The notes under the pieces: model-generated
The model's input: the letters and a program-made list of their open reading frames with translations, nothing else
Told to the model about the DNA's origin: nothing
Database searches by the model: none
Translations under genes and position numbers: made by a program
NCBI GenBank assembly: GCA_040905475.1
Contig: JBBDRM010000012.1
Span: 1 to 45,061 of the forward strand
Length of the DNA stretch: 45,061 nucleotides
DNA from: Actinomycetota bacterium
GTDB lineage: Bacteria; Actinomycetota; AC-67
Direction of reading: 5' to 3'
Shown here: one piece after another, positions 1-14,008 of the stretch
How positions within the stretch are numbered: position 1 is the stretch's first letter
Layout: every line of letters starts with the position of its first letter

Positions 1-1
1 C

Positions 2-604
2 ATCGCCGACGCGCTGGGCGCGTCGCGCGGCGGTCATGTGCTCGAGGTCGGCACCGGAACGGGGCTTCACGCGCGATGGCTCCTCGATAACACGACGGTC
101 GTCGTGACGGCGCTGGACGCCTCCGAGCCGATGCTCGCGATCGCCTCGCAGCGGCTCGAGCCGTACACGGGGCGGGTCGCGCTCGGGATCGCCGATGCGC
201 ATGATCTGCCGTTCGCCGATGGAACGTTCGACGCGGCGTTCTGCTCGGGAACCTTGCACCACCTCTCGTCGCCGGGCCGCGGCGTTGCGGAGCTGGCGCG
301 CGTCACTCGGCCCGGCGGCCGGGTCGCCGCGATGGAGCCGAACTGGAAGTTCCCCTCAACGATGCTCGTCGGCGCCTCGACGCCGGCCGAACGCAACGTC
401 TTCAAGATCTCGCCGGCCTCGCTGGAGGCGTGGGGACGTGCGGCCGGGCTCGAGGACGTGCGTCTGGAACGACTCCTCTACACGCCGCCGGCACCGCGAT
501 CATGGGGAAGCCTTTGGGATGCGGTCGACCGGGGGCTCGCACGCATCCCAGGCCTGAAACGTTGGGCGATCATGCTCCTGCTGACCGGTCGCGTGCCCGG
601 CTGA
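2..604 (+). CDS. Class I SAM-dependent methyltransferase, 5'-truncated by the window edge
   Basis: The frame is open from base 2, and the residues before the first internal GTG (position 38) continue the fold, so the true start lies outside the window. Motif I reads VLEVGTGTG, followed by an acidic residue after the second strand (ALDASEPM) and the post-motif DAHDLPFADGTFD. This is the Methyltransf_11/UbiE-like Rossmann pattern for binding S-adenosylmethionine. The rest of the visible protein is short (about 200 residues) and ends in a basic, hydrophobic tail. The acceptor substrate cannot be told from sequence. It converges with the antiporter gene, whose stop lies 2 bp beyond its own. Confidence 0.85.
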   Translation: MADALGASRGGHVLEVGTGTGLHARWLLDNTTVVVTALDASEPMLAIASQRLEPYTGRVALGIADAHDLPFADGTFDAAFCSGTLHHLSSPGRGVAELARVTRPGGRVAAMEPNWKFPSTMLVGASTPAERNVFKISPASLEAWGRAAGLEDVRLERLLYTPPAPRSWGSLWDAVDRGLARIPGLKRWAIMLLLTGRVPG

Positions 605-606
605 GG

Positions 607-3351
607 CTAGTCCCTCCGCGACCCGGCGACGAGCCGGCCGGCGTCTCGGACCGCGAAGCGCGGGCGGAAGCGTCGAACCGGCTTTCCGGCGAGCGCGGCC
701 CGCACCGATCGCTGCTCCGCCGGATCGAGCTTGCCGCCGCGCCGGCCCGTGACGAAGAAAGTATCGACGGCTTCGCCGTCGCGGGTGGCGGCGGTCGCTT
801 GATGGATCTGCGCGCCGGCCCGGGCGAGCGATGCGGCGACGCGCGCGAGCAACCCCCGGCGGTCTGGCGCGCGGAGCTCGACGATCGTGTGCCAAGGCGA
901 GGCGCGGTCGTCGAATGCGACCGTCGCGTCGACCGGCTCGACCGGCGTTTCTGATTCGCCGTCGAGCGCGGCTGTGACCGCGCTCCTTAGCTCGTCCCAA
1001 TCCGTCCGCGGGCCGGCAGAAACCTGGAACACGTCGACGGCGATACCGCTCCGCCACGTGGAAACCACGGCTTCGTCGATCGAGATCCCCTTCGCGGAGA
1101 TCGCGCCGGCGACATCGGCGAGCGCGGCGCGCCGGTCGACGAACGCGAGGTGCAAGATCCATCGTCCGGGCTCGCCGTCCGGCTCGGCTTCGAGACGCAC
1201 TTCTCCGCGGACGGGGCGCGTCTCGGTCATGCGGACGTGCCGAGCGATCGCCGCGACGTCCTGCGAAAGGAGATACCGGCGCGGCGCGTCGGCCAGGTGC
1301 GCCCGGACCTCATCGCGGGGGAGGACTGGTTCCAGAGCGCGGCCGACCTCGTCGCGCCGGAGCTCGAGCAGATCCGACGCCGACGCATCCACCAGCTCAG
1401 GGTCCGACAGCACATCGGAGACGAGCTTCCACAGCTCGCGGATCGCTTCGCGCTGGGTCGGATCGGATGCACTCGCCGTCGCCAGCACGTACAGGCCGTC
1501 CGCCCGCTCCTTCGTCCCGATGTGGGACGCGATCTCGAGGACGTCCTCTTCGGCGCCGAGGTCGAGCCGGGTCGCCGCCGCGGGAAGGATGTGCCGTTCG
1601 GCCGTCAGCATGGCCGCCGTCTCGGCGTCCGCCGAGGGGAGTCCGATCCCCTTCGCGAAACGGGAGACTGCCTCCGGGCTCCCCCGCCCGTCGAATGCCC
1701 CGCGCGCCAACGCGCCGAGCACGACCAGGTCGCGCCTGTCCATCCGCTCCCACACCTCGACCGCCGGATCCTTCCCGGCTCGGATGAGAGCCGTCAGATC
1801 GGACAGCTCCTGCCACACGATCGCACCGACGGGATCCAGGTCGAACGGATCCCGGATCCGACGGCGTAAGGCCGCGTCGATCTCGGGGAGGAGGATCGCG
1901 ATCAGGCCGCTGAGCTCGAGGAACCTCCAGGAACGCCCGGAGCCGGCCAGCAGCAAAGCGACGAGCCGGCGGCGCAGGTCCTCATCCCAGATCACCGACT
2001 CGTCCGGCAACGCCGAGAGCCACGAGAGCAAGCGCCCGCCGGGACGCCGCGTGGCGCACGCGATCGCGGCGTCGAGCCCGATCCGCGCGGCCTCCTCGGT
2101 GGGCGGCTCTGCTCCCAGCATCGTCGAGAGCTCGACCGTCTCGGCGGTGATCTCGAGCCAGCCCCCGGGTGGCTCGATCGGAGATATCGCGGCCGTCGCC
2201 GCACGGCGGATGCGCCGCGTCCGCTCGCGAAGAAGTGGAGGCGTCGCGACGGTCGTCGCCAGCACCACTAGGATCAGCGCGGCGTGCTGCTGCGCGTCGA
2301 GGATCCCGCCGGACAGGCCGAGTGCGGCGAAGATCAGCCCGACCTCTCCGCGAGGGATCATCCCGATGCCGACCAGCAGACGGTCGCCTGATCCGCGCTT
2401 CATTCCGAGGCCGGCCACGATCTTCCCGGCGAAGCCGACGACGAGCAGCACGCCGGCGATGGCCATGGCCTTCGAGTCGGTGAACGCTCCGAGTTGGGTG
2501 TCGACCCCCATCGACAGGAAGAAGATCGGGATCAGCAGGTGGCCGAGTGGCGCCAGCCTCCGCTGAAGGTCGTCGGCGGCCGAGCTCGAGCCCACGGCGA
2601 CGCCTGCCACGAACGCGCCGACGATCGGGGCCAGCTTCGCCCACGACGCGACGCCTGCAAGCCCCAGCGCCAGGGCGACGCCGGCGACCAGCAGCGTGCC
2701 ATCGGCGCGTGCCCGTTCTGCGACCGCGGCGAGGCCGCGTGGAACGATCCAGTGAGCGACGGCGGTTCCGACGACCACGAACGCCAGCGCCGCCCCGAGC
2801 ACGCCGGCCGCGCCGGCCGCATCCAGACCGCCGCCGGTCGAGACCCGCAACACGATGGTGAGGATGAGTAGACCGATGACGTCGTCTGCGACCGCCGCTC
2901 CGAGCACGGTCCGGGCCTCGGGCGTGGTCAGGGCGCGCATATCCGCGAACACGCGGGCGGTTATGCCGACGCTGGTCGCCGTGAGCGCGGCGGCGAGGAA
3001 CAGTCCCGCGGATCCGTCGACACCCACCACCCGAACCACGGCCAGCGCTCCACCCATCGGTACGGCGACCCCGATAACGCCAACGCGGATGGAGTCCCCA
3101 CCGACGCTCCGGAGATCGGCGAGGTCCATGTGAAGACCGACCTCGAACAGCAACAGGATCGCTCCGAGCTCGGCCAGGAGCGAGAGGGCTTCGTCATGGT
3201 GCACGAGGCCCAGAAGCGACGGACCGATGATGATCCCCGCCGCAATCTCTGCCAGCACGGCCGGCTGGCGGAAGCGCTCCGCGACCTCGGCGGCGATCCG
3301 CGCCGCGACGAGGACGGCGAACAGCCGCAATAGGAGCGGCGCCGCATCCAT
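607..3351 (-). CDS. CPA2 cation/proton antiporter fused to a degenerate GlnD-like region with two ACT domains
   Basis: Residues 1 to about 380 are a Na+/H+ exchanger domain of the Kef/NhaS3 (CPA2) type, with about 12 hydrophobic segments and the paired aspartates of AVADDVIG in the ion-binding helix. Residues from about 420 to the end follow the order of the C-terminal part of GlnD (PII uridylyltransferase/uridylyl-removing enzyme). They comprise a helical and HD-like region, then a stretch like GlnD's RYLLS-x-D segment, then ACT domains at about 729-800 and 820-890. The nucleotidyltransferase domain is absent. The HD motif is lost: GlnD's LLHDIGKG position reads LARGAFDGRG here, and the usual HH is replaced by ERH. 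It is therefore probably a ligand-sensing pseudo-enzyme controlling the antiporter. It starts 5 bp after the winged-helix gene, so the two form an operon. Ion specificity and ligand (perhaps glutamine) are inference. Confidence 0.85.
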   Translation of the reverse strand: MDAAPLLLRLFAVLVAARIAAEVAERFRQPAVLAEIAAGIIIGPSLLGLVHHDEALSLLAELGAILLLFEVGLHMDLADLRSVGGDSIRVGVIGVAVPMGGALAVVRVVGVDGSAGLFLAAALTATSVGITARVFADMRALTTPEARTVLGAAVADDVIGLLILTIVLRVSTGGGLDAAGAAGVLGAALAFVVVGTAVAHWIVPRGLAAVAERARADGTLLVAGVALALGLAGVASWAKLAPIVGAFVAGVAVGSSSAADDLQRRLAPLGHLLIPIFFLSMGVDTQLGAFTDSKAMAIAGVLLVVGFAGKIVAGLGMKRGSGDRLLVGIGMIPRGEVGLIFAALGLSGGILDAQQHAALILVVLATTVATPPLLRERTRRIRRAATAAISPIEPPGGWLEITAETVELSTMLGAEPPTEEAARIGLDAAIACATRRPGGRLLSWLSALPDESVIWDEDLRRRLVALLLAGSGRSWRFLELSGLIAILLPEIDAALRRRIRDPFDLDPVGAIVWQELSDLTALIRAGKDPAVEVWERMDRRDLVVLGALARGAFDGRGSPEAVSRFAKGIGLPSADAETAAMLTAERHILPAAATRLDLGAEEDVLEIASHIGTKERADGLYVLATASASDPTQREAIRELWKLVSDVLSDPELVDASASDLLELRRDEVGRALEPVLPRDEVRAHLADAPRRYLLSQDVAAIARHVRMTETRPVRGEVRLEAEPDGEPGRWILHLAFVDRRAALADVAGAISAKGISIDEAVVSTWRSGIAVDVFQVSAGPRTDWDELRSAVTAALDGESETPVEPVDATVAFDDRASPWHTIVELRAPDRRGLLARVAASLARAGAQIHQATAATRDGEAVDTFFVTGRRGGKLDPAEQRSVRAALAGKPVRRFRPRFAVRDAGRLVAGSRRD

Positions 3352-3356
3352 GCCGG

Positions 3357-3674
3357 CTACCGCTCTTCGAGCGTGCCGGGCTCGACGATCCAGCCGCGGT
3401 TGCGGATATTCCTCACGAAGTCCCGCCCGATCTCACGCCGCAGGCCGGACAGGAGGACGTCGACCGACCGGCCTCGCGCAAGCCGAAGCGCCTCGGAAAG
3501 CTCGTCTCGGGACACAACGCGGTTCCTATTGGCGGCCAGGATCGCGAGGAGCTCGAGCTGGGAGCGCGAGAGGGTGAGAGCGCGACCGGCGAACTCGGCG
3601 CGGTAGCTCTCGACGTCTACCCACAATCTGCCGAGGACGATGGCCCCCATCGTGACCGGAGCCGCGTTCGTCAT
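3357..3674 (-). CDS. Stand-alone OmpR/GlnR-type winged-helix DNA-binding protein
   Basis: The 105-residue product consists almost wholly of a Trans_Reg_C winged helix: an N-terminal beta segment (GRLWVDVESYRAEF), the LTLSRSQLELLAILA helix, NRVVSRDEL, a recognition-helix region around RSVDVLLSGLRREIG, and the wing ending RNRGWIVEP. There is no receiver domain, so it is unlikely to be phosphorylated. The ATG at 3674 was chosen because it begins just before the domain and lies 6 bp from a -10 box, implying a leaderless mRNA. An upstream in-frame extension is possible but would cross the promoter and operator. It is followed after 5 bp by the antiporter-GlnD fusion and lies beside amtB. It is the best local candidate to bind the 11-bp-periodic operators, which also precede it (autoregulation). 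Target genes are inference. Confidence 0.8.
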   Translation of the reverse strand: MTNAAPVTMGAIVLGRLWVDVESYRAEFAGRALTLSRSQLELLAILAANRNRVVSRDELSEALRLARGRSVDVLLSGLRREIGRDFVRNIRNRGWIVEPGTLEER

Positions 3675-3680
3675 GCTCCC

Positions 3681-3734
3681 AGAGTAGGTGAGGGACGTTA
3701 CCGGCCTTTTTCGCCCGTGTTTCCTGCGGATTAA
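3681..3734 (-). promoter_or_regulatory. Operator C plus -10 box of the winged-helix/antiporter operon
   Basis: Read in the direction of transcription there are four 5-bp half-sites: TTAAT (3734-3730), GAAAC (3723-3719), GAAAA (3712-3708) and GTAAC (3701-3697). Each is separated by exactly 6 bp, giving an 11-bp period. After a 10-bp gap comes TACTCT (3686-3681), a plausible -10 box only 6 bp before the ATG. The layout matches the known GlnR operator (GTnAC-n6-GAAAC repeats) and the two arrays around amtB. Confidence 0.6.
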
Positions 3735-3806
3735 ATCTTTGTCGGACGAACCGGTGAAGCGACGCATCCTGCCAGCCGGTCCCGCGCCCCTGACTTGAGA
3801 AGCCAA

Positions 3807-3835
3807 GGTGGAGGAAGGACCATCCTTCCTCCACC
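3807..3835 (-). terminator. Hairpin terminator downstream of amtB
   Basis: A perfect 13-bp inverted repeat with a 3-nt loop lies 17 bp beyond the amtB stop codon. On the minus strand it is followed by a modestly T-rich stretch (TTGGCTTCTC). The stem is strong, but the U-tract is weak, as is common in high-GC bacteria. It would separate amtB from the winged-helix operon that follows in the same direction. Confidence 0.75.
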
Positions 3836-3851
3836 CTCGGCGTGCGCGTGA

Positions 3852-5297
3852 CTAGATCCTGGGATGCACCACGTCCGCTTCGGCTTTCACGCCGTTTCGT
3901 GCGGTCGCGATCGCCTCCGGCGTCGCGAGTGCCGTGGGCCCGAGGAAAGCTTCGGGGTATCCCCACATGCCGTGCTCGCCGATATCGAGGCCCTCGATCT
4001 CCTCTTCACGACTCACGCGAAGCCCGACGGTGGCCTTGATCAATCCGAAGACGATCGCCGCGCTCACGATTGTCCAGCCGGCAACGGCGACCACCCCGAG
4101 CGCCTGCGTCCCGAGCTGGCCCAAGCCATGACCGTATGCGAGACCAGGAGTGACGTTGGTCAGTCCTTCCACAAGGCGCGGGGCGGCGAAGATCCCAACG
4201 GCGAGCGTGCCCCACACACCATTGATCGCGTGTACGGAGACCGCCCCGACAGGATCGTCCACGCCGGCCTTATCGAACGCCTTGACCGCGAAGTACACGA
4301 GCACGCCGCCGATGCCTCCGATCACGACGGCCGCCCAGGGTTCGACGAACGCACACGGAGCGGTTATCGCGACCAAGCCGGCCAGGGCACCGTTCGCGGT
4401 CATGCCGACGTCCGGCTTCCTGCCGAACATCCATGCGGTGAACATGGCCATGATCGCTCCGGCGGCCGCCGCCAGGTTCGTCGTCACGGCGATGTGCGCT
4501 GCGAGCTCGTTCGCCGCCAGGGTGGAGCCGGGGTTGAACCCGAACCAGCCGAACCACAGGATGAACACGCCGAGGAAGGCCAAGGGCATGCTGTGCCCGG
4601 GGATCGCGCGAGGCTTCTTGTCGGGACCGTACTTGCCGATCCGCGGGCCGAGCATGATCGCGCCGACCATGGCCGCCCATCCGCCGACGGAATGCACGAC
4701 GGTCGAGCCGGCGAAGTCGAGGAATCCTCGCGTTGCGAGCCAGCCTCCACCCCAGATCCAGTGCCCGGCTATCGGATAGATGAGGCCCGAGATGAGGCCG
4801 CTGTACAGGATGTACGCCTTGAACTTCGTTCGTTCTGCCATGGCTCCCGAAACGATGGTCGCCGCTGTTCCGGCGAACACCACCTGGAAGATCCACTTCG
4901 CGGAAAGCGGCGGGGTCGCCCACGAAAGCGAATCGAAGGTGCCCTCTCCACCGCTGAGGAACCAGCCGCTCGTTCCGAAGAGCGCGTTCCCGGCTCCGAA
5001 CATCAGCGCGAATCCGACCGCCCAGAACGCGATGGATGACATGCCGAAGTCCATCAGGTTCTTCATCACGATGTTCGCGGCGTTCTTCTGTCGCGTGAAC
5101 CCAGCCTCGACCATCGCGAATCCGGCTTGCATGAAAAAGACCAAGAAGGCCGCCAACAGGGTCCAGACCGTATCGATCGCGATTGTCTCCGCCGACGGTC
5201 CCTCGGCCCCCTGCGCCCATGCAGCGATGGGGGATGCCATCAAGAAGACGACCGCGGCTCCCCCCAGCACGAGCAACCTGCGCTTGCGTGTGCCCAT
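3852..5297 (-). CDS. amtB: Ammonium transporter
   Basis: The 481-residue protein is an Amt/Rh-family ammonium channel. It begins with a cleavable-looking signal segment (about residues 1-28), as usual for Amt proteins, followed by the Amt domain with about 11 membrane segments. The pore twin-histidine positions are recognisable in VHSVGGW and SVHAINGVWGT, and the family motif EAGFTRQKNAAN is present. The cytosolic tail keeps EGLDIGEHG, the conserved region needed for PII-dependent gating in the family. No glnK (PII) gene follows it, unlike in most amtB operons. The start is supported by GGAGGTCGG immediately before the ATG. An operator array and -10 box lie 30-83 bp upstream, so nitrogen-dependent transcription is likely. 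Confidence 0.96.
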   Translation of the reverse strand: MGTRKRRLLVLGGAAVVFLMASPIAAWAQGAEGPSAETIAIDTVWTLLAAFLVFFMQAGFAMVEAGFTRQKNAANIVMKNLMDFGMSSIAFWAVGFALMFGAGNALFGTSGWFLSGGEGTFDSLSWATPPLSAKWIFQVVFAGTAATIVSGAMAERTKFKAYILYSGLISGLIYPIAGHWIWGGGWLATRGFLDFAGSTVVHSVGGWAAMVGAIMLGPRIGKYGPDKKPRAIPGHSMPLAFLGVFILWFGWFGFNPGSTLAANELAAHIAVTTNLAAAAGAIMAMFTAWMFGRKPDVGMTANGALAGLVAITAPCAFVEPWAAVVIGGIGGVLVYFAVKAFDKAGVDDPVGAVSVHAINGVWGTLAVGIFAAPRLVEGLTNVTPGLAYGHGLGQLGTQALGVVAVAGWTIVSAAIVFGLIKATVGLRVSREEEIEGLDIGEHGMWGYPEAFLGPTALATPEAIATARNGVKAEADVVHPRI

Positions 5298-5326
5298 CCG
5301 ACCTCCAGTCCTCGAGCGTCGGAGCG

Positions 5327-5380
5327 ACCATAACGGGCGCCTGTTTCATCCCTGTGTCATCGCCGTTACGACCGCGTAAA
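5327..5380 (-). promoter_or_regulatory. Operator A (GlnR-like) plus -10 box of amtB
   Basis: In the direction of amtB the half-sites are TTTAC (5380-5376), GTAAC (5369-5365), GACAC (5358-5354) and GAAAC (5347-5343), each separated by exactly 6 bp. TATGGT (5332-5327) follows after a 10-bp gap and is a plausible -10 box, 29 bp from the ATG. The order matches the published actinobacterial GlnR consensus (GTnAC, GAAAC, GTnAC, GAAAC) with one mismatch in each of the first three half-sites and none in the last. Its centre, near -41, fits a class II activator site. Confidence 0.72.
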
Positions 5381-5432
5381 AGAGTTTTTCGTCCCTCCAT
5401 CAAATCTCGCGCATCGCCGGCACAGAAAGAAG

Positions 5433-5470
5433 GGCCGGGACGCCCGACGTCGTCGGCGAACGTCCCGGCC
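5433..5470 (-). terminator. Hairpin terminator after the 37-aa small ORF
   Basis: A perfect 10-bp stem (5433-5442 with 5461-5470) encloses a smaller inverted repeat. On the minus strand it is followed by the T-rich run CTTCTTTCT. It lies 66 bp beyond the stop of the small ORF and ahead of the amtB promoter. This supports a short, independent transcript. Confidence 0.7.
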
Positions 5471-5535
5471 TGGCGGGCATCTTCTGCTGGGTCTCCCGGC
5501 CGAATCCCCGTGACCGTCGAGCCGGTGCCCGAGCC

Positions 5536-5649
5536 CTACAGCGACGCGCAGCGCGCCGCGAGCGCCTCATCGAGGCGGTCGCGCTGCGGAGCCGCGCACA
5601 AGTCCTCGTCGTCCATGACCTCAAGCAGCGCTCCTACGATCAGCTCCAT
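5536..5649 (-). CDS. Small protein of 37 residues in the nitrogen island
   Basis: The ORF begins with ATG at 5649, preceded by GGGAGGTGA at a 6-bp spacing, one of the best ribosome-binding sites in the window. It encodes a short acidic peptide starting MELIVGALLEVMDDEDLC, which is probably helical and contains two cysteines. A hairpin terminator follows the stop, and a partial operator array precedes it, so it has its own transcription unit between amtB and the divergent 153-aa gene. I do not recognise the family. It could be a small regulator or adaptor of AmtB or the antiporter, or a short coding RNA. Only the ORF, ribosome-binding site and terminator are seen directly. Confidence 0.5.
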   Translation of the reverse strand: MELIVGALLEVMDDEDLCAAPQRDRLDEALAARCASL

Positions 5650-5680
5650 CCGCGTCACCTCCCGCGCGCATGCTGGCACA

Positions 5681-5723
5681 CGCATGTTGCGGGGCGGTTT
5701 CGTTCCCATGAAACGCAGGTTAA
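5681..5723 (-). promoter_or_regulatory. Operator D (partial) upstream of the small ORF
   Basis: In the small-ORF direction the half-sites are TTAAC (5723-5719), TTCAT (5712-5708) and GAAAC (5701-5697), each 6 bp apart. At the conserved 10-bp distance lies CATGCG (5686-5681), a poor -10 match. The spacing rule is kept, but one half-site and the -10 are weak, so this copy is less certain than the other three. Confidence 0.35.
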
Positions 5724-5744
5724 TTCCGGCCGTTTCCTCCGACG

Positions 5745-5798
5745 TTCACCACGACTTCACGCCGATGACTCATCGGTGAAACAAAGCGCCTCTACCGT
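5745..5798 (+). promoter_or_regulatory. Operator B plus -10 box of the 153-aa gene
   Basis: Read on the plus strand the half-sites are TTCAC (5745-5749), TTCAC (5756-5760), GACTC (5767-5771) and GAAAC (5778-5782), again at an exact 11-bp period. TACCGT (5793-5798) follows after 10 bp, the same spacing as at amtB. Over 38 aligned positions, operators A and B share 26 identical bases, including the spacer region around GTCATCG. It sits back to back with operator D. Confidence 0.65.
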
Positions 5799-5834
5799 GA
5801 GCCGGAGCCCAAATGAGACCAGGAGGTCACCGAG

Positions 5835-6296
5835 ATGACGTATCGGTTCCCCGGACCGTCCTACATGGAGCGCGTCGTGAACCTTCCGCCCGACTCCGCA
5901 GCGACCGCGCTCGATCTGGCTCTTCTCGACGTCGGGAGCGGCGCGCCGGAAGGGCATGAGCACTGGTGCCTCGAGGTGGACCGAGGACGTCTCGTCCTCG
6001 AGCTCCCCAGTGTTCGCCTGGAGACGCCTGCGTTGAGCGGTGTGTGTCCGTTACGCCGGGCGACCGGCTGGATCCGCTCCACCGTCTTCCTGTTCCCCGT
6101 TGAGCTCGAGCTGTTCCCGTGGTCGTCGACCGCGAGCGCGGTCGGGCTCCGGCCTTCGGGAACCCGACCGCGGCGACTCGGAAGCGATATCTACTACCGG
6201 GTCGGCGCGGCCGGGCTCGATCACTTGCGCGGGGAGATGCTTCGATGGGCACGCGCGGCCGCCTCGGCCCGGCGCAGAACGCCTACGAAAGCGTGA
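5835..6296 (+). CDS. Uncharacterised 153-aa protein under a GlnR-like operator
   Basis: An AGGAGGT ribosome-binding site precedes the ATG by 7 bp, which fixes the start. The protein begins MTYRFPGPSYMERVVNLPP. It is rich in short beta-like segments in the middle, contains a WCLEVDRGRLVLELPS stretch, and ends in a basic helix (MLRWARAAASARRR). No signal peptide or membrane segment is evident. I do not recognise a family. The last 14 bases overlap the convergent glycosyltransferase gene. It is transcribed away from the small ORF and amtB, from a promoter carrying operator B, so it is probably co-regulated with ammonium transport. Its role in that response is unknown. Confidence 0.8.
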   Translation: MTYRFPGPSYMERVVNLPPDSAATALDLALLDVGSGAPEGHEHWCLEVDRGRLVLELPSVRLETPALSGVCPLRRATGWIRSTVFLFPVELELFPWSSTASAVGLRPSGTRPRRLGSDIYYRVGAAGLDHLRGEMLRWARAAASARRRTPTKA

Positions 6297-7293
6297 TCGT
6301 CTCTCCGGCGCCGCAGGTGTGATGGCCCGGCGTGCATCCGGTGAGCGCGCGCCGGACGTGGTACGCGTGGCGTCCGCGGGACGAGTAGTAGGTACGGATC
6401 ACCAGCTCGCCGATGAGGCCGAGCGAGATGAACTGCACCCCCATCATCACCAGCAGGGCACCGAGGAACAGCAGCGGCCGCGTCCCGATCGAGCGATCGA
6501 GCACGAGCCGCTGGTACGCGAGGTAGCCGAGCACCGCCGAGCCCACCGCGCCGAACATCAGCCCCAATCCGCCGAAGAACCGGATCGGCCGGTTGAAGAA
6601 GCGCAACATGAACGGGAGCGCGAGGAGGTCGAGGAAGACCTTCGACACGCGAGAGATCCCGTACTTCGAGCGACCGTGCTCGCGCGGGTGATGCGTGACC
6701 GGGATCTCGGCGACGCGGTCCCCCACGACCGCGGCGAGCGCCGGCAGGAATCGGTGCGCATCGCCGTACAGCTCGAGCTCATCGACGACGTCGCGGCGAT
6801 AGGCCTTCAGCGTGCAGCCGTAGTCGTGGAGCTGAACCTTGGAGATCCGCGAGATGAGCCGGTTCGCGATGCCGCTCGGGATCCGCCGGCTCCAATACTT
6901 GTCCTTGCGATCGACGCGCCAGCCGCTGACGACGTCGAAGCCTTCATCGAGCTTCGCGAGGAGCTTCGAGATGTCGGCGGGGTCGTTCTGGAGGTCGGCG
7001 TCCATCGTCACGATCACGCGCCCGCGCGCGTGGTCGAACCCGGCGGCCATCGCCGCGGTCTGGCCGAAGTTGCGCGTGAAGCGCACGACCTGGAACCAGG
7101 GATCCTCCCGGTGGAGCGCGTCGAGCGCGGCGCTGGAGCCGTCGGTCGAGCCGTCGTCCACAAGGATCACCTCGCTCGGCGGAAGCGAGTCACGCACGGC
7201 GCGCAATCGCCGGGCCAGCTCGGGGAGGCTTTCTTGCTCGTTGTAGACCGGGATGACGATCGAGACTTCGGGCGGGACGGGGCGCGACGTCAC
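6283..7293 (-). CDS. GT2 family glycosyltransferase, ArnC/dolichol-phosphate-mannose-synthase type
   Basis: The 336-residue protein has an N-terminal GT-A fold with VSIVIPVYNEQ, DDGSTDGS and the metal/nucleotide-binding DADLQNDP, followed by two C-terminal membrane segments (about 230-260 and 268-295). This is the layout of polyprenyl-phosphate glycosyltransferases (ArnC, GtrB, DPM1-like). It would transfer a sugar from a nucleotide donor to a lipid-phosphate carrier on the inner membrane face. The sugar cannot be deduced. It begins 10 bp after the methylmalonyl-CoA epimerase stop on the same strand, probably one transcript with an unrelated function. Its C-terminal tail overlaps the convergent 153-aa gene by 14 bp. 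Confidence 0.9.
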   Translation of the reverse strand: MTSRPVPPEVSIVIPVYNEQESLPELARRLRAVRDSLPPSEVILVDDGSTDGSSAALDALHREDPWFQVVRFTRNFGQTAAMAAGFDHARGRVIVTMDADLQNDPADISKLLAKLDEGFDVVSGWRVDRKDKYWSRRIPSGIANRLISRISKVQLHDYGCTLKAYRRDVVDELELYGDAHRFLPALAAVVGDRVAEIPVTHHPREHGRSKYGISRVSKVFLDLLALPFMLRFFNRPIRFFGGLGLMFGAVGSAVLGYLAYQRLVLDRSIGTRPLLFLGALLVMMGVQFISLGLIGELVIRTYYSSRGRHAYHVRRALTGCTPGHHTCGAGETITLS

Positions 7294-7303
7294 CGGACCG
7301 AGG

Positions 7304-7702
7304 TCACTCCTGCACCAGCTCGACCAGAACGCCCCCGACGCTTTTGGGATGAACGAACGCGACCATCGATCCCCGTGAGCCCCGACGTGGCTCGGCGTCG
7401 ATCAGCTGCATCCCCTCGCCCTTCAGGTGCTCCAGGACGGCTTTCAGGTCCGACACGCCGTACCCGATGTGGTGCACACCTTCGCCCCGTTTCTCGATGT
7501 ACTTGCCGACGGGGGTGTTCGGACCGAGCGGCCGGAGGAGCTGGATCCAGGACTCGCCCACGCGGAACATCGCTTCCTCGACGCCCTGTTCCTCAACGGT
7601 CTCGCGGTGTGCGAGCTTCACGCCGAACGCGGCTTCGTAGAAGGCGATCGCGGTTTCGAGGTCCTTCACCGCGATGCCCACGTGGTCTACCCGGTCGAAC
7701 AT
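7304..7702 (-). CDS. mce: Methylmalonyl-CoA epimerase (VOC superfamily)
   Basis: The 132-residue protein begins MFDRVDHVGIAVKDLETA and contains the family signatures GVHHIGYGV, PRRGSRGS and FVHPKSVGG, near the end VLVELVQ. The metal ligands of the fold (His in DHVGIAV, His in VHHIGY, Glu near the C-terminus) are present. It interconverts (S)- and (R)-methylmalonyl-CoA between propionyl-CoA carboxylase and the mutase, both of which have candidates in this window. The ATG at 7702 starts exactly at the first VOC strand. A TAGAAT -10-like box (7719-7714) lies 11 bp upstream, suggesting a leaderless or nearly leaderless mRNA. Confidence 0.94.
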   Translation of the reverse strand: MFDRVDHVGIAVKDLETAIAFYEAAFGVKLAHRETVEEQGVEEAMFRVGESWIQLLRPLGPNTPVGKYIEKRGEGVHHIGYGVSDLKAVLEHLKGEGMQLIDAEPRRGSRGSMVAFVHPKSVGGVLVELVQE

Positions 7703-7713
7703 CGGCCGGATTC

Positions 7714-7740
7714 TACCCGCTCCGCGTGGCGCGCTAGGAT
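7714..7740. promoter_or_regulatory. Divergent promoter region between mce and the thiolase
   Basis: The 90-bp gap between the two divergent genes holds TAGAAT on the minus strand (7719-7714) and TAGGAT on the plus strand (7735-7740). Both resemble actinobacterial -10 hexamers. No convincing -35 boxes were seen. The back-to-back layout may co-ordinate epimerase and thiolase expression. Confidence 0.45.
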
Positions 7741-7792
7741 GGAGAACCTGGCAGATCGCGCCAGAAGGCCTCAAGAGCAGGGGGTTCTCTCG

Positions 7793-8971
7793 ATGAGCGA
7801 AACGGTTATCGTCTCCGGCGCACGCACGCCGATCGGCAAGTTCCTGGGAGGATTCGCCGACTTCACCGCCATGGATCTGGGCGGATTCGCGATCGCCGAA
7901 GCGCTGCGGCGCGCGGGCCTGTCCGGCCAGCAGATCGACTACGTGATCATGGGTCAGGTGCTGCAGGCCGGCCAGGGGCAGATCACGGCTCGCCAGGCAG
8001 CGACCAAGGGCGGCATCCCCATGGACGTACCGGCCATCACGATCAACAAGGTCTGCCTGTCCGGCTTGAACGCCGTCCACCTCGCCGACACGCTGATCCG
8101 CGCCGGCGAGATCGAGATCGCGATCGCCGGCGGCATGGAGTCCATGACGAACGCCCCGTACGCGATGCCCAAGGGACGCACGGGCGCACGGATGGGCGAC
8201 GCCAAGCTCGTCGACCTGATGATCTGGGACGGCCTGTGGGACGCGTTCGACCACAAGCACATGGGCGACGGTTCCGACACCGTGAACTCCAAGCGCGGCA
8301 TCAGCCGGGCCGAGCAGGACGAGTGGGCCGCTCGCTCGCACGAGCGCGCCGCCGACGCGACCAAAGCCGGCCGCCTGCGCGACGAGATCGTCTCGGTGCA
8401 GATCCCGCAGCGCAAGGGCGAGCCGATCCTGATCGAAGAGGACGAGGGCATCCGGCCGGGCACCACGGCCGAGTCGCTCGCGAAGCTGGCACCGGCGTTC
8501 CAGAAAGAAGGCACCATCACCGCGGGCAACGCCTCGCAGATCTCCGACGGCGGCGCGGCTATGGTCGTGATGAGCGCCGACAAGGCAAGATCGTTGGGAC
8601 TCGAACCGATCGCGACCGTCGTCGCGCACGGTCAGGTCGCCGGCCCGGACAACTCGCTTCACCTGCAGCCCGCGAACGCGATCAAGGCGGCGGCCTCGAA
8701 GGCCGGCCTCGACGCGGCGGGGCTGGACCTCTACGAGATGAACGAAGCGTTCGCGTCGGTCGCGATCGCATCGGGCAAGGATCTCGGCGTCTCCGAGGAC
8801 CGCGTCAACGTCAACGGCGGTGCGGTGGCGCTCGGGCATCCGATCGGGATGAGCGGCGCGCGCCTGATCCTCACGCTCGCCAACGAGCTCAAGCGGCGCG
8901 GCGGCGGAACCGGTGCCGCGGCGCTCTGCGGCGGCGGTGGTCAGGGCGACGCGCTGATCATCAAGGTGTAG
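7793..8971 (+). CDS. Acetyl-CoA C-acetyltransferase (canonical thiolase)
   Basis: The 392-residue protein is a full-length type II thiolase. The nucleophilic cysteine is in NKVCLSGLNAV (residue 88). The catalytic His is in GHPIGMSG (about 349) and the second cysteine in CGGGGQG (about 379). GGMESM and NEAFA are also present. It condenses two acetyl-CoA to acetoacetyl-CoA or cleaves 3-ketoacyl-CoA. With ccr, mce and mutase nearby it could supply the acetoacetyl-CoA/crotonyl-CoA branch. The ATG at 7793 was chosen because it begins the conserved MSETVIVSGARTP. It contrasts with the two thiolase-fold proteins at 21406-24073, which lack the cysteine. Confidence 0.95.
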   Translation: MSETVIVSGARTPIGKFLGGFADFTAMDLGGFAIAEALRRAGLSGQQIDYVIMGQVLQAGQGQITARQAATKGGIPMDVPAITINKVCLSGLNAVHLADTLIRAGEIEIAIAGGMESMTNAPYAMPKGRTGARMGDAKLVDLMIWDGLWDAFDHKHMGDGSDTVNSKRGISRAEQDEWAARSHERAADATKAGRLRDEIVSVQIPQRKGEPILIEEDEGIRPGTTAESLAKLAPAFQKEGTITAGNASQISDGGAAMVVMSADKARSLGLEPIATVVAHGQVAGPDNSLHLQPANAIKAAASKAGLDAAGLDLYEMNEAFASVAIASGKDLGVSEDRVNVNGGAVALGHPIGMSGARLILTLANELKRRGGGTGAAALCGGGGQGDALIIKV

Positions 8972-9001
8972 CGCGAGCTCGGCGAGCGGCGCGGGAGCCG
9001 G

Positions 9002-10246
9002 GTGAGCGCCGACCTCGAGCAGATCCGCTGGTGGTCGTGGAGACGCCAGCGGCTGGACCGGTCGTCCCGCGGCATCGACGATTGCCTCCGCTCGATCATC
9101 GGCGTCTACAGCGCGAACCCACAAGGCGCGCTCTCGCTGCTCGCGCGCGTCCCGCGACTCGGGCAGGGCATGGTGGAGGGCGCGGTCGAGTCGCGCATCG
9201 CGTTGCGACTGCCGGCGATGCGCCGAACGGTGTGGATGCTGCACGTCGAAACCGCGCACATGGCGTTCCATGCGACCGATACCTCAGCGCCGTACGTGTT
9301 TCTCCTGAAACGCGAAGGGATAACCGAGGACGAGTACACGCGGCTCGAACGGGAGATCCTGTTGGCCGCCGGGCGGCCGATGACCGCCGACGCGATCCGC
9401 GAGGCGATCAAGGATCCGCCGGAGAAGCTAACGCCGGTCCTTCAGGCACTCTGCGCGGAGGGCAAGCTGATCCGCGTGAAGCCGAAGACGGTGCAGTCCA
9501 ACCTCTTCACGTACGCCGCGATGCGCGTCTGGCTCGGGCACGAGCTCCCGGACGCCGACCCAACGGAAGCGCTGACCTGGCTCGCGGGCGACTACATCAA
9601 GGCGTTCGGCCCGGTCACCGTCGAGGACTTCGCGTGGTGGGCCGGCGTGCCGGCGTCCCAGGCCGAGGCCGCGATACGCGCCCACGATCCGGCCGACCTG
9701 GGGGACGGCCTCCTGATGTTCGAGAAGGACGTTCGCGGCTTCGAAGGGACGCGGCCGGTCGCGAACCGCGTCAACCTCCTGCCGGCATGGGACTCCTACA
9801 CGATGGGGTACGCGGAACCGTCGCGGACGCGCTTCGCCGACGCCGAGGTCTTGCCCTACCTGTACGACAAAGGTGGCAACGCTACAAGCATGATCCTGGT
9901 CGAAGGGAAGGTCGCCGGGCTGTGGGACTACACGCTCGCCGACAAGCGGATCGCGATCCGGATCGGCCTCTTCGAGGAGCCGGCGCCCCGCGCGATGGCC
10001 GCGATCGAAGCCGAGGCCGGACTGGTCGCTGCGTACTTCCATGCGCGCGACACGCAGATCAGCCGCGTGAAGATCGGCAAGCCGATCGCGACCGCCGGGC
10101 AGGGCGCGCATCTGAAGCCGCTCGCGAAGCGACCGGTGGCGACGAAGCCCGCGACCAAGCCGGAGCCGGCGCCGGTCGTGAAGCCCGCCTCGGCGAAGGC
10201 TAAGCCTGCTCGCCCGGCTCGCCGGCGGCCGCCTGCCGCATCCTGA
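9002..10246 (+). CDS. HTH_42 (AlkZ/YcaQ superfamily) winged-helix protein
   Basis: The 414-residue protein follows the HTH_42 family (formerly DUF1006): repeated winged-helix modules, a WWSWRRQRLD N-terminus and a LLPAWDSYTMGY segment matching the family's conserved LLPxxDxY region. AlkZ/YcaQ members are DNA glycosylases acting on alkylation or cross-link damage with a QxQ or QxR motif. I do not see that motif here, so the protein probably belongs to the uncharacterised branch. The last ~50 residues are a Lys/Ala/Pro-rich, disordered tail that could contact DNA. The GTG start at 9002 follows a weak GGGAG. It lies 30 bp after the thiolase and overlaps the convergent DUF2231 gene by 47 bp. Confidence 0.8.
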   Translation: MSADLEQIRWWSWRRQRLDRSSRGIDDCLRSIIGVYSANPQGALSLLARVPRLGQGMVEGAVESRIALRLPAMRRTVWMLHVETAHMAFHATDTSAPYVFLLKREGITEDEYTRLEREILLAAGRPMTADAIREAIKDPPEKLTPVLQALCAEGKLIRVKPKTVQSNLFTYAAMRVWLGHELPDADPTEALTWLAGDYIKAFGPVTVEDFAWWAGVPASQAEAAIRAHDPADLGDGLLMFEKDVRGFEGTRPVANRVNLLPAWDSYTMGYAEPSRTRFADAEVLPYLYDKGGNATSMILVEGKVAGLWDYTLADKRIAIRIGLFEEPAPRAMAAIEAEAGLVAAYFHARDTQISRVKIGKPIATAGQGAHLKPLAKRPVATKPATKPEPAPVVKPASAKAKPARPARRRPPAAS

Positions 10247-10733
10247 CGCGGTACCCCTTGTCGAATACGAGTGAACCGCCGATCGCGGCGCCGAACGTCA
10301 TCACGACGAGCACGGCGAGACTATGGATCATGAGCCCCACGGAAACCACCTCTTCGTCGATCCCGCGCCGGTGGAGGAGATCCGTGACCACGAGAACGTT
10401 CGTGACGACCATCGCGAGGAAGTGGCTGTTCGTTATCCGGCGCACCTCCGAACCCGGCCGCATCTTGAGCCAGTCGACGAAGCCGGTCAGCACCGCGAAC
10501 AGAGACCCGATCGCGCCGGCGAGCAAGGTGTAGCCGGCCGCGACGAAGAGGTCGCGTCCCCACGTCCGGTCGCGACCGATGTACCCGATCACGTCGAGGA
10601 CCGGCGCGATGACGTATGCGCCGACGGGGATATCGGTGAACGGCGGGTGGAGTGGCTTCCCTTCGAACCCTCGCAAGCCGTAGAACTTCCGGTCCCGGAT
10701 CCTGAACGTCGAGCCCAAGCCGAACCGACCCAT
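10200..10733 (-). CDS. DUF2231 family membrane protein
   Basis: The 177-residue protein has the DUF2231 signature LHPPFTDIPVG followed by four hydrophobic segments (about 50-70, 82-105, 115-135 and 142-165). Members are small, uncharacterised inner-membrane proteins. The start at 10733 is fixed by AGGAGGTGA seven bases before the ATG. The frame stays open upstream into the preceding gene, but that part is not coding. It follows the ccr stop by 53 bp on the same strand and could be co-transcribed. Function unknown. Confidence 0.85.
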   Translation of the reverse strand: MGRFGLGSTFRIRDRKFYGLRGFEGKPLHPPFTDIPVGAYVIAPVLDVIGYIGRDRTWGRDLFVAAGYTLLAGAIGSLFAVLTGFVDWLKMRPGSEVRRITNSHFLAMVVTNVLVVTDLLHRRGIDEEVVSVGLMIHSLAVLVVMTFGAAIGGSLVFDKGYRVRMRQAAAGEPGEQA

Positions 10734-10786
10734 GCGATCACCTCCTGGTCGAGGCGTTCTTCCCCGCGATCGCGTGGCGGCAACCG

Positions 10787-12031
10787 TTACGGCAGATCCT
10801 TCAACCCCGGCTCCGGCGCGCTCACGAGCGCCGCCATGTTTCCTTCGGGGTGGCGGTTCTCGAACATCAGCTGGTGCGCGGTTCCGATCGCTTCGAAGGA
10901 GAACGTCTTCGACAGACACGGATCGATCTTGCCGGCCACGACGAGATCGTTGAACGCGTTCGACTGCTCGTCGTTGGCGAAGTGCGATCCCTGGAAGCGC
11001 TTCTGCCGCATCCAGTGATAGCGGAGATCGACGACGGCGCTGTAGCCCGTCGTTCCGGCGCAGATCACGACCATCCCACCGGTGTCGGCCACGAAGATCG
11101 ACGTCGGGACGGTGTCCTCGCCGGGATGCTCGAACACGATGCGGGGGCTCCGCTTCTCCCCGAGCGCATCCCAAAGCGCCTTTCCGAACCCCTTCGCGCC
11201 GGTGAGCCAGTTGTTGTAGCCCTCGGTGTCGGTCCAGTGCGGCGGCACGCCCCAGTGGTCGAAGCGTTTTCGATTTATGTAGCCGACCGCGCCGAGCTTC
11301 TTGCAGAACTCACCCTTGTCGTCGCTCGACACGACGGCGACCGCCTTGCCCCCCAGCTCGCGCACGATCTGGATGGCCATCGAGCCCAGCCCTCCGGCGC
11401 CGCCCCACACCAGCACCGCGTCGCCCGGCCGCACCGCGTGCGGGGGCCAGCCGGTCAGCATCCGGTACGCGGTCGCGCCGACCAGCGTCGGCGCGGCCGC
11501 CGCCTCCCACGTGAGGTGCGGCGCCTTCGGCATGCACTGATGCGCCTGGACCTTCGTGAACTGCGCGAACGATCCCCAGTTCGACTCGTAGCCCCAGATC
11601 CGGAACGAGTTCGCGAACATCGGATCCTCGCCGGCCTTCACCATCGGGTCGTCGGACTCCCACTGACCGCAGTGCACGACGACCCGATCGCCGATCTTGA
11701 GGGTGCTCACCTTGTCGCCGGTCGCGTAGACGACGCCCGAAGCGTCCGAGCCGCCGATGTGGAAATCGGTCGGTTCGCCGAACCGGCCGTGAACCTTCGT
11801 GATGTCGACCGGGATCCCGCGCGCCGCCCACACATTGTTGTAGTTGATCCCGGCGGCCATCACGAGCACGAGCGCGTCCTCGGGGCCGGGATCGGGAACC
11901 TCGATCTCTTCGATCTGGAACGCCTTCTCCGGATCGCCGAATCGCTCCGGCCTGATGAGCTGCGCATGCATGCGCTTCGGAACGTCCCCGATGGGCGGGA
12001 TCTCGCCGACGGCGTATAGGTCTTTGGGCAC
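10787..12031 (-). CDS. ccr: Crotonyl-CoA carboxylase/reductase
   Basis: The 414-residue medium-chain dehydrogenase/reductase carries the specific features of Ccr: the N-terminal [26 protein letters not shown] with the CO2-contacting Asn, [13 protein letters not shown], the NADPH-binding [11 protein letters not shown], and the [10 protein letters not shown] segment with the conserved His. It reductively carboxylates crotonyl-CoA to ethylmalonyl-CoA using NADPH and CO2, the key step of the ethylmalonyl-CoA pathway. It also makes extender units in some actinobacteria. It is slightly shorter than typical members (about 430-450). Mce, a B12-dependent mutase large subunit and thiolase are in the same window, but ethylmalonyl-CoA mutase, mesaconyl-CoA hydratase and the lyase are not. 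Confidence 0.93.
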
Positions 12032-12114
12032 TGCGGAACCTCCTCGCGGTTTGGTCCGCCAGTTATTGCTGTTCTCCGCGCCAGCGTCAAACCGGCTGCG
12101 CTAGGGTGAGCGCG

Positions 12115-13257
<1,143 letters not shown>

Positions 13258-13265
13258 GGAGGAGC

Positions 13266-13766
13266 ATGGAGCGAGTGGATCCACCGTATGCGGCCGACGA
13301 GCGCACCATGCTCGTCGCTTTCCTCGACTACTACCGCGAGACCATGATCGCCAAGCTCCAGGGCCTGACCGAGGAGCAGGCGCGATGGAAACCCGCAGAG
13401 ACGGCGAACTCGCTCATCGGCCTGGTCCAGCACCTCGCCTACGTGGAACAGTGGTGGTTCCGGACCTGCTTCGCCGGAGAGCCCGATGAGCCGATCCCGG
13501 GCAGCGAAGAGGATCCCGACATCGATTTCAAGGTTCCCGAGGATCGGACGATCGAGGACGTCGCAGCGTTCTACCGGTCCCAGTACGCGAGAGCGAGCGA
13601 GATCGTGAAAGCTGCTCCATCGCTCGACGACTTCTCGGCGGTAGACGCGCGGGGGAAGCCGAGAACGTTGCGTTGGATCCTCGTTCACATGATCGAGGAG
13701 ACGGCGCGGCACGCCGGGCACGCCGACATCACCCGCGAGCTGATCGACGGCTCGACCGGCGACTGA
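13266..13766 (+). CDS. DinB/DUF664 family protein
   Basis: The 166-residue protein is a four-helix-bundle DinB-like protein. It has the metal-ligand pattern of a histidine in LVQHLAYVEQWW and two in ARHAGHADITRE. Members include thiol-dependent (bacillithiol or mycothiol) S-transferases and many uncharacterised proteins. The WVxE-like first-helix tryptophans (EQWWFRTCF) fit the DUF664 subgroup. It starts 8 bp after the acyl-CoA dehydrogenase with GAGGAG just ahead and is followed 11 bp later by the small beta-rich protein. A detoxification or thiol-transfer role is family-based inference. Confidence 0.85.
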   Translation: MERVDPPYAADERTMLVAFLDYYRETMIAKLQGLTEEQARWKPAETANSLIGLVQHLAYVEQWWFRTCFAGEPDEPIPGSEEDPDIDFKVPEDRTIEDVAAFYRSQYARASEIVKAAPSLDDFSAVDARGKPRTLRWILVHMIEETARHAGHADITRELIDGSTGD

Positions 13767-13777
13767 AGAGAGGTCTC

Positions 13778-14008
13778 ATGGCACGCAAGAAGGATCAGCT
13801 CCAGCCCGGCGAACGGGTGAAGGTCGTGGCGCTTCGTCCCGATCCCGAGCCCGGCACACCGGTGCCCCAGGACATCATCGGGATGGAAGGCGTCATCGAG
13901 TGGGTCACGCCGGGCTTCGACGGCGCCAAAGGAGCGTTCGAGGTGAAGCTCGACGACGGGCGCATCTTCAACCTCTACGCCACCGAGATCGAGCCCGTGG
14001 AGCAATGA
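13778..14008 (+). CDS. Small 76-aa beta-rich protein, KOW/SH3-like
   Basis: The product begins MARKKDQLQPGERVKVVALRP, has a Gly-Met-Glu-Gly turn (IIGMEGVIEWV), and ends with alternating hydrophobic strands (AFEVKLDDGRIFNLYATEIE). This looks like a single small beta-barrel of the KOW/SH3-like kind. I do not recognise a named family. The ATG at 13778 was chosen because GAAGAGAGG precedes it and the N-terminus is basic as expected. It lies 11 bp after the DinB gene and is probably the last gene of that transcript. Confidence 0.7.
   Translation: MARKKDQLQPGERVKVVALRPDPEPGTPVPQDIIGMEGVIEWVTPGFDGAKGAFEVKLDDGRIFNLYATEIEPVEQ

Follow-up and report, generated by a model that had tools for sequence, protein, structure and literature searches.

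A probable GlnR regulon with new candidate targets in an uncultivated family of Actinomycetota

We analyzed a stretch of 45,061 nucleotides (nt) from an Actinomycetota bacterium (GenBank assembly GCA_040905475.1, contig JBBDRM010000012.1, positions 1 to 45,061 of the forward strand; hereafter, the window), in which four promoter regions carry tandem arrays of short, evenly spaced half-sites. These arrays are very probably the operators of the host's own GlnR, an orphan nitrogen regulator of the OmpR family whose gene lies on another contig. They would define a regulon of a known kind, with new targets, in an uncultivated family of this phylum. The features expected of such a regulon were found, namely tandem half-sites, boxes at core nitrogen genes, a GlnR with a conserved recognition helix, and conservation in relatives. 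The operator type itself is already known; the new part is a family of small winged-helix proteins, one of which is encoded in the window.

Structure of the arrays in the window

Each array spans 54 base pairs (bp) and consists of four 5-bp half-sites separated by 6-bp spacers (a period of 11 bp), followed after 10 bp by a hexamer predicted to act as the -10 element. The arrays were scored in bits with a matrix trained on three window arrays and three arrays from elsewhere in the host genome. They are named here after the gene or open reading frame (ORF) that follows, with protein lengths in amino acids (aa).

5380-5327, minus strand: amtB array, TTTAC-6-GTAAC-6-GACAC-6-GAAAC-10-TATGGT, 0 mismatches to the pattern, score 39.0 (half-sites 5343-5380; predicted -10 TATGGT 5327-5332)
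3734-3681, minus strand: winged-helix gene array, TTAAT-6-GAAAC-6-GAAAA-6-GTAAC-10-TACTCT, score 35.1 (predicted -10 TACTCT 3681-3686, ending 6 nt before the ATG)
5745-5798, plus strand: 153-aa gene array, TTCAC-6-TTCAC-6-GACTC-6-GAAAC-10-TACCGT, score 33.1 (predicted -10 TACCGT 5793-5798)
5723-5670, minus strand: 37-aa ORF array, TTAAC-6-TTCAT-6-GAAAC-6-GCAAC-10-CAGCAT, score 23.2

The six training arrays scored 24.5-36.5 when each was left out in turn, the best independent site in the window besides the four arrays reached 8.1, and the highest score among 145,220 positions elsewhere in the host genome was 13.9. An earlier sequence-only reading had described three of these promoters, each with four half-sites, 6-bp spacers and 10 bp to the -10 hexamer, and the coordinates, read directly and located by script, agree with that description. 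It had also reported a fourth and weaker array before the 37-aa ORF; this array is present, but its four half-sites are complete and only its -10 hexamer (CAGCAT) is poor. The half-sites and their 6-nt spacers agree with published GlnR boxes (PMC10704036, PMC3087709), as that reading had stated, and its count of 26 identical bases among the 38 of the amtB and 153-aa operators was exact on recount, corresponding to 16 of 20 half-site positions and 10 of 18 spacer positions, the spacer identity being mildly unusual (binomial p ~0.013). The leader of amtB has 29 nt before the start codon and contains the Shine-Dalgarno sequence GGAGG, and that of the 37-aa ORF has 20 nt with GGGAGGTG. An Rfam scan of window positions 1-14000 yielded no match.

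Arrays and the GlnR gene in the host genome

We searched the host genome (G000; 97% complete, 4.24 Mb in 173 contigs) for patterns and used the reversed pattern as control. Perfect matches to the proximal half-sites followed after 10 bp by the -10 hexamer occurred only twice in the 4.24 Mb, at the window amtB and at C73:19564, where a glutamine synthetase gene (glnA) follows about 100 bp downstream. The four-half-site pattern added a near-perfect array at C147:13345, upstream of amtB-glnK-glnD, and another at C91:22053, upstream of a 50-aa ORF. When loosened to three mismatches, this pattern gave mostly noise (82 matches vs 32 in the reversed control). The genome also contains a full-length GlnR gene:

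C130:2016-2699, minus strand: glnR, on a different contig from the window, with a glutamine synthetase gene within 10 nt downstream

This arrangement suggests that glnR and the glutamine synthetase gene form an operon. The DNA-binding domain of the host GlnR aligned with the GlnRs of 8hih, 8hig and 8hml (alignments shown for 8hih and 8hig), with no difference in TRTVDVHVRRLRAKLG, the recognition helix, which was also conserved in the relatives. This helix is identical among actinomycetes according to a review (PMC10704036), and in the structure of GlnR with RNA polymerase a promoter with four sites is occupied by four DNA-binding domains in head-to-tail order (PMC10704036). Nitrogen control, which the sequence-only reading had deduced from amtB and the GlnD-like fusion, is supported by the genome-wide scan that it had proposed, with matches at the glnA and amtB-glnK-glnD promoters, and by a canonical GlnR gene.

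Conservation of the arrays in relatives

The relative G031 is a Thermoleophilia metagenome-assembled genome (contig JACUUL010000039), which places the phylum as Actinomycetota. We examined 120 relatives, mostly from other families of the phylum, with a pattern consisting of the array, 10 bp and TANNNT, allowing at most one mismatch. The pattern was found in 69 of the 120 relatives and its reversed control in none, so the conservation on which the sequence-only reading had made its regulon depend is borne out. The 10-bp distance was tested independently on arrays upstream of 33 amtB genes, chosen by their half-sites only and with the bases at the -10 offset left unused. Fourteen of the 33 lay above the 99% level for shuffled sequence. 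In 13 of these 14 arrays TANNNT lay exactly 10 bp past the last half-site; in the fourteenth, the array had been placed too far upstream by one 11-bp register. Moreover, a GlnR match (E<=1e-33) was present in 8 of 13 genomes with an amtB array vs 2 of 19 without one (Fisher p 0.005, only a guide because the genomes are related). These results provide sequence support for the GlnR promoter architecture across much of Actinomycetota, past the cultivated actinomycetes, and the strict distance to the -10 element should be usable for target prediction in metagenome-assembled genomes.

Within the family of the host, arrays were found before glnA (G002 and G003), amtB-glnK (G002), amtB (G001, G002 and G003), another glutamine synthetase gene (G002), a permease gene (G003) and the 50-aa gene (G003, and more distantly in G002). 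Arrays also precede an acyltransferase gene in the host, G003 and G004 (G000:C63:745-798 on the minus strand, G003:C179:14797 and G004:C95:2388). By eye, this gene resembles that of 1-acylglycerol-3-phosphate acyltransferase, and a link between nitrogen and lipids is possible.

GlnR or another reader of the arrays

Several observations weigh against the assignment of the arrays to GlnR. In five genomes with an amtB array the best GlnR match was only distant, and other OmpR-type regulators may therefore read similar arrays there. The region examined around the host glnR contained no convincing array. Two of the arrays preceding relatives of the winged-helix gene (G069 and G123) scored 6.7 and 4.4, which is in the background range, and are recognizable by their spacing only. 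Furthermore, the pstS promoter of the host (G000:C54, L347) reads TTCAT-6-TTCAC-6-CATGA-6-TTCAT-10-TATGTT, so the 11-bp period and the 10-bp distance are shared here by OmpR/PhoB-type activators, and the 10-bp distance cannot serve as a signature of GlnR. Finally, the 153-aa array opens with GTTCACC and both of its distal half-sites are TTCAC, making it Pho-box-like too; it could also be readable by PhoP, and thus be dual.

These last observations bear on the alternative that the arrays are Pho boxes for a phosphate-responsive regulator of the PhoP/PhoB type, or dual operators at which PhoP and GlnR compete. PHO boxes are likewise tandem 11-nt repeats, with GTTCACC in Streptomyces coelicolor (PMC4415409), where PhoP competes with GlnR at glnA and amtB (PMC10704036), and the Pho-type copy at the host pstS also ends 10 bp before the -10 element. 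However, Pho boxes have TTCAT/C half-sites and belong to phosphate genes, whereas the window arrays have GAAAC, GTAAC or GCAAC in the proximal position, and the best arrays mark nitrogen genes (glnA and amtB-glnK-glnD). The pstS promoter scored only 12.1 with the array matrix, vs 23-41 for the arrays, and the host's own Pho-type half-site repeats were absent from the window arrays, the 153-aa array being partly Pho-like. The assignment to GlnR is therefore based on the GAAAC/GTAAC half-sites and the gene set, and we consider the phosphate alternative improbable.

A still less probable alternative, and one that must be judged very unlikely, is that the winged-helix protein encoded in the window reads the arrays and autoregulates the cluster:

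3357-3674, minus strand: winged-helix protein, 105 aa, a receiver-less OmpR/PhoB effector domain, with its ATG start codon at 3674

Its gene is placed between two arrays, and its predicted structure (mean predicted local distance difference test 82.7) matched OmpR/PhoB effector domains in the PDB, a fold close to the DNA-binding domain of GlnR, with the GlnR domain 8hig among the best matches. However, the recognition-helix region is RSVDVLLSGLRREIG in this protein and TRTVDVHVRRLRAKLG in GlnR, a difference that argues against it as the reader. The protein matched PF00486 only; it lacks the N-terminal receiver-like domain of GlnR, and hence a receiver for tetramerization, and many genomes without the winged-helix family still have glnA and amtB arrays. 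Co-binding with GlnR, in the manner of NnaR, would be compatible with these data, but the protein is more likely to be a target of GlnR than a reader of the arrays.

An origin of the arrays by chance or base composition, to which the short and degenerate half-sites and the matches of the loosened scan in the reversed control might point, can be dismissed for the arrays of the family taken together, given that the combination of array, 10-bp spacing and -10 hexamer had no reversed match in 120 genomes, that the enrichment at offset 10 was obtained without use of the -10, and that arrays are conserved before the same genes.

Proposed regulation by GlnR

With GlnR as the reader of the arrays, nitrogen limitation would lead four GlnR protomers to bind head-to-tail on one face of the DNA, one per 11-bp repeat. 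As the proximal GAAAC or GTAAC half-site ends 10 bp upstream of the -10 element, GlnR would replace the -35 element and recruit RNA polymerase. In the window it would activate amtB, the genes for the 153-aa and 37-aa products, and the winged-helix gene together with the gene behind it, which encodes an antiporter-GlnD fusion. Elsewhere in the host genome, operators of the same type would act at glnA, amtB-glnK-glnD and the 50-aa gene. The winged-helix protein would in turn be a second-tier regulator produced from a leaderless mRNA, in a position comparable to that of NnaR.

The system resembles the GlnR regulon of Streptomyces and Mycobacterium (box a-b-a-b, gTnAc-n6-GaAAc; 8hih) in its half-sites and 6-bp spacers, the four tandem sites before amtB, the core targets (amtB-glnK-glnD, glnA and another glutamine synthetase gene) and the recognition helix of GlnR. 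It differs in its occurrence in an uncultivated family, in a glnR followed directly by a glutamine synthetase gene, and in predicted targets including a stand-alone winged-helix protein, the antiporter-GlnD fusion and small orphan proteins. The winged-helix protein, the antiporter with the sensing half of GlnD and a family of small proteins of about 50 aa are new candidate parts of nitrogen control.

The winged-helix family

A profile of five members was searched against 397 genomes of the phylum. It recovered 13 members at E<=1e-18, separated by a gap from the next matches, which were ordinary response regulators at 1e-11. The members range from about 75 to 135 aa and come from three actinobacterial families (f1, f23 and f42), and for some of them the best match was to the C-terminal end of PRK07239, the NCBIfam model for uroporphyrinogen-III synthase. 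The group seems to be a conserved and previously undescribed family. Each of the 12 members checked has an array of the same geometry whose -10 hexamer is followed by the start codon after 6 or 7 nt, although the number of independent cases is below 12 because the four f42 members are close relatives; 10 of the 12 arrays scored >=16.8. The thirteenth member, a second copy in G103 that adjoins amtB, had no detectable array. From the distance between the -10 hexamer and the start codon, leaderless winged-helix mRNAs are predicted, the gene in the window included. Leaderless mRNAs are common in mycobacteria (PMC4633059).

The winged-helix genes neighbor amtB-glnK in G033, G069, G123 and G252 and amtB in G003, the host and the second G103 copy, and in G188 the neighbors are the antiporter-GlnD fusion and then amtB. 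In f42, the winged-helix gene is divergent from a gene that, by eye, resembles siroheme synthase at its N-terminus.

In its position the family recalls NnaR, a winged-helix protein that is controlled by GlnR and binds jointly with it at nirB (PMC10704036; PMC6277429). Both have an OmpR-type winged helix and occur in nitrogen loci, apparently under GlnR control. In contrast to NnaR, a co-activator for nitrate genes, the family described here lacks the N-terminal HemD-like domain, is small, has a predicted leaderless promoter, and neighbors amtB, glnK and the antiporter-GlnD fusion. The leaderless winged-helix module would be a part new to a specialist. We tentatively propose, with somewhat less than even confidence, that these receiver-less proteins, expressed from leaderless mRNAs at GlnR-activated promoters, make up a second regulatory tier through which several actinobacterial lineages adjust ammonium transport to nitrogen, coupled in some of them to a glutamine-gated cation/proton antiporter with the ACT region of GlnD.

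The antiporter-GlnD fusion

The protein encoded behind the winged-helix gene combines two parts:

607-3351, minus strand: fusion protein, 914 aa, a CPA2 cation/proton antiporter joined to the C-terminal half of GlnD (HD-like and ACT regions)

Its C-terminal half and the host GlnD shared 30% identity over residues 442-883, the ACT region included. Compared with GlnD (PII uridylyltransferase), the CPA2 antiporter takes the place of the nucleotidyltransferase and the HDIGKG motif is absent, so that the fusion falls outside GlnD proper. Full-length relatives were found in G001 (L132, 53%) and G188 (L341, 38%), and the fusion is conserved in two families. The ACT domains of GlnD sense glutamine, and on this basis glutamine may gate cation/proton antiport by the fusion, acting through the GlnD-type ACT region.

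Other candidate target genes

The remaining genes preceded by arrays in the window, and the ~50-aa gene of the host, are as follows:

3852-5297, minus strand: amtB (PF00909)
5536-5649, minus strand: 37-aa ORF, MELIVGALLEVMDDEDLCAAPQRDRLDEALAARCASL
5835-6296, plus strand: ORF encoding the 153-aa orphan protein
G000:C91 (L067:5867-6016), minus strand: ~50-aa protein, also in G003:C75 (L292) and G002:C10 (L291)

The AmtB of the window was 41% identical to the glnK-linked AmtB of the host genome and is encoded by a distinct gene. The proteins most similar to it come from many different phyla, among them Planctomycetota, Poribacteria and Omnitrophota, and the gene was possibly acquired by transfer. 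The 153-aa protein had no Pfam or NCBIfam match and no convincing relative among 297 genomes of the phylum. In G004:C192 (L295), a perfect array is directly followed by a 101-aa ORF with the C-terminal sequence DEALAARVASL, which resembles DEALAARCASL in the 37-aa peptide of the window; this 12-residue similarity (E 0.8) is too short to be more than suggestive of homology and was not counted. The ~50-aa protein (MExLxERLExxEEDLxARAFLFDxPVAYREGVE...) is conserved across three genera, its gene being preceded by a GlnR-type array, and the host copy lies downstream of a gene that by eye resembles a nitrite/sulfite reductase gene.

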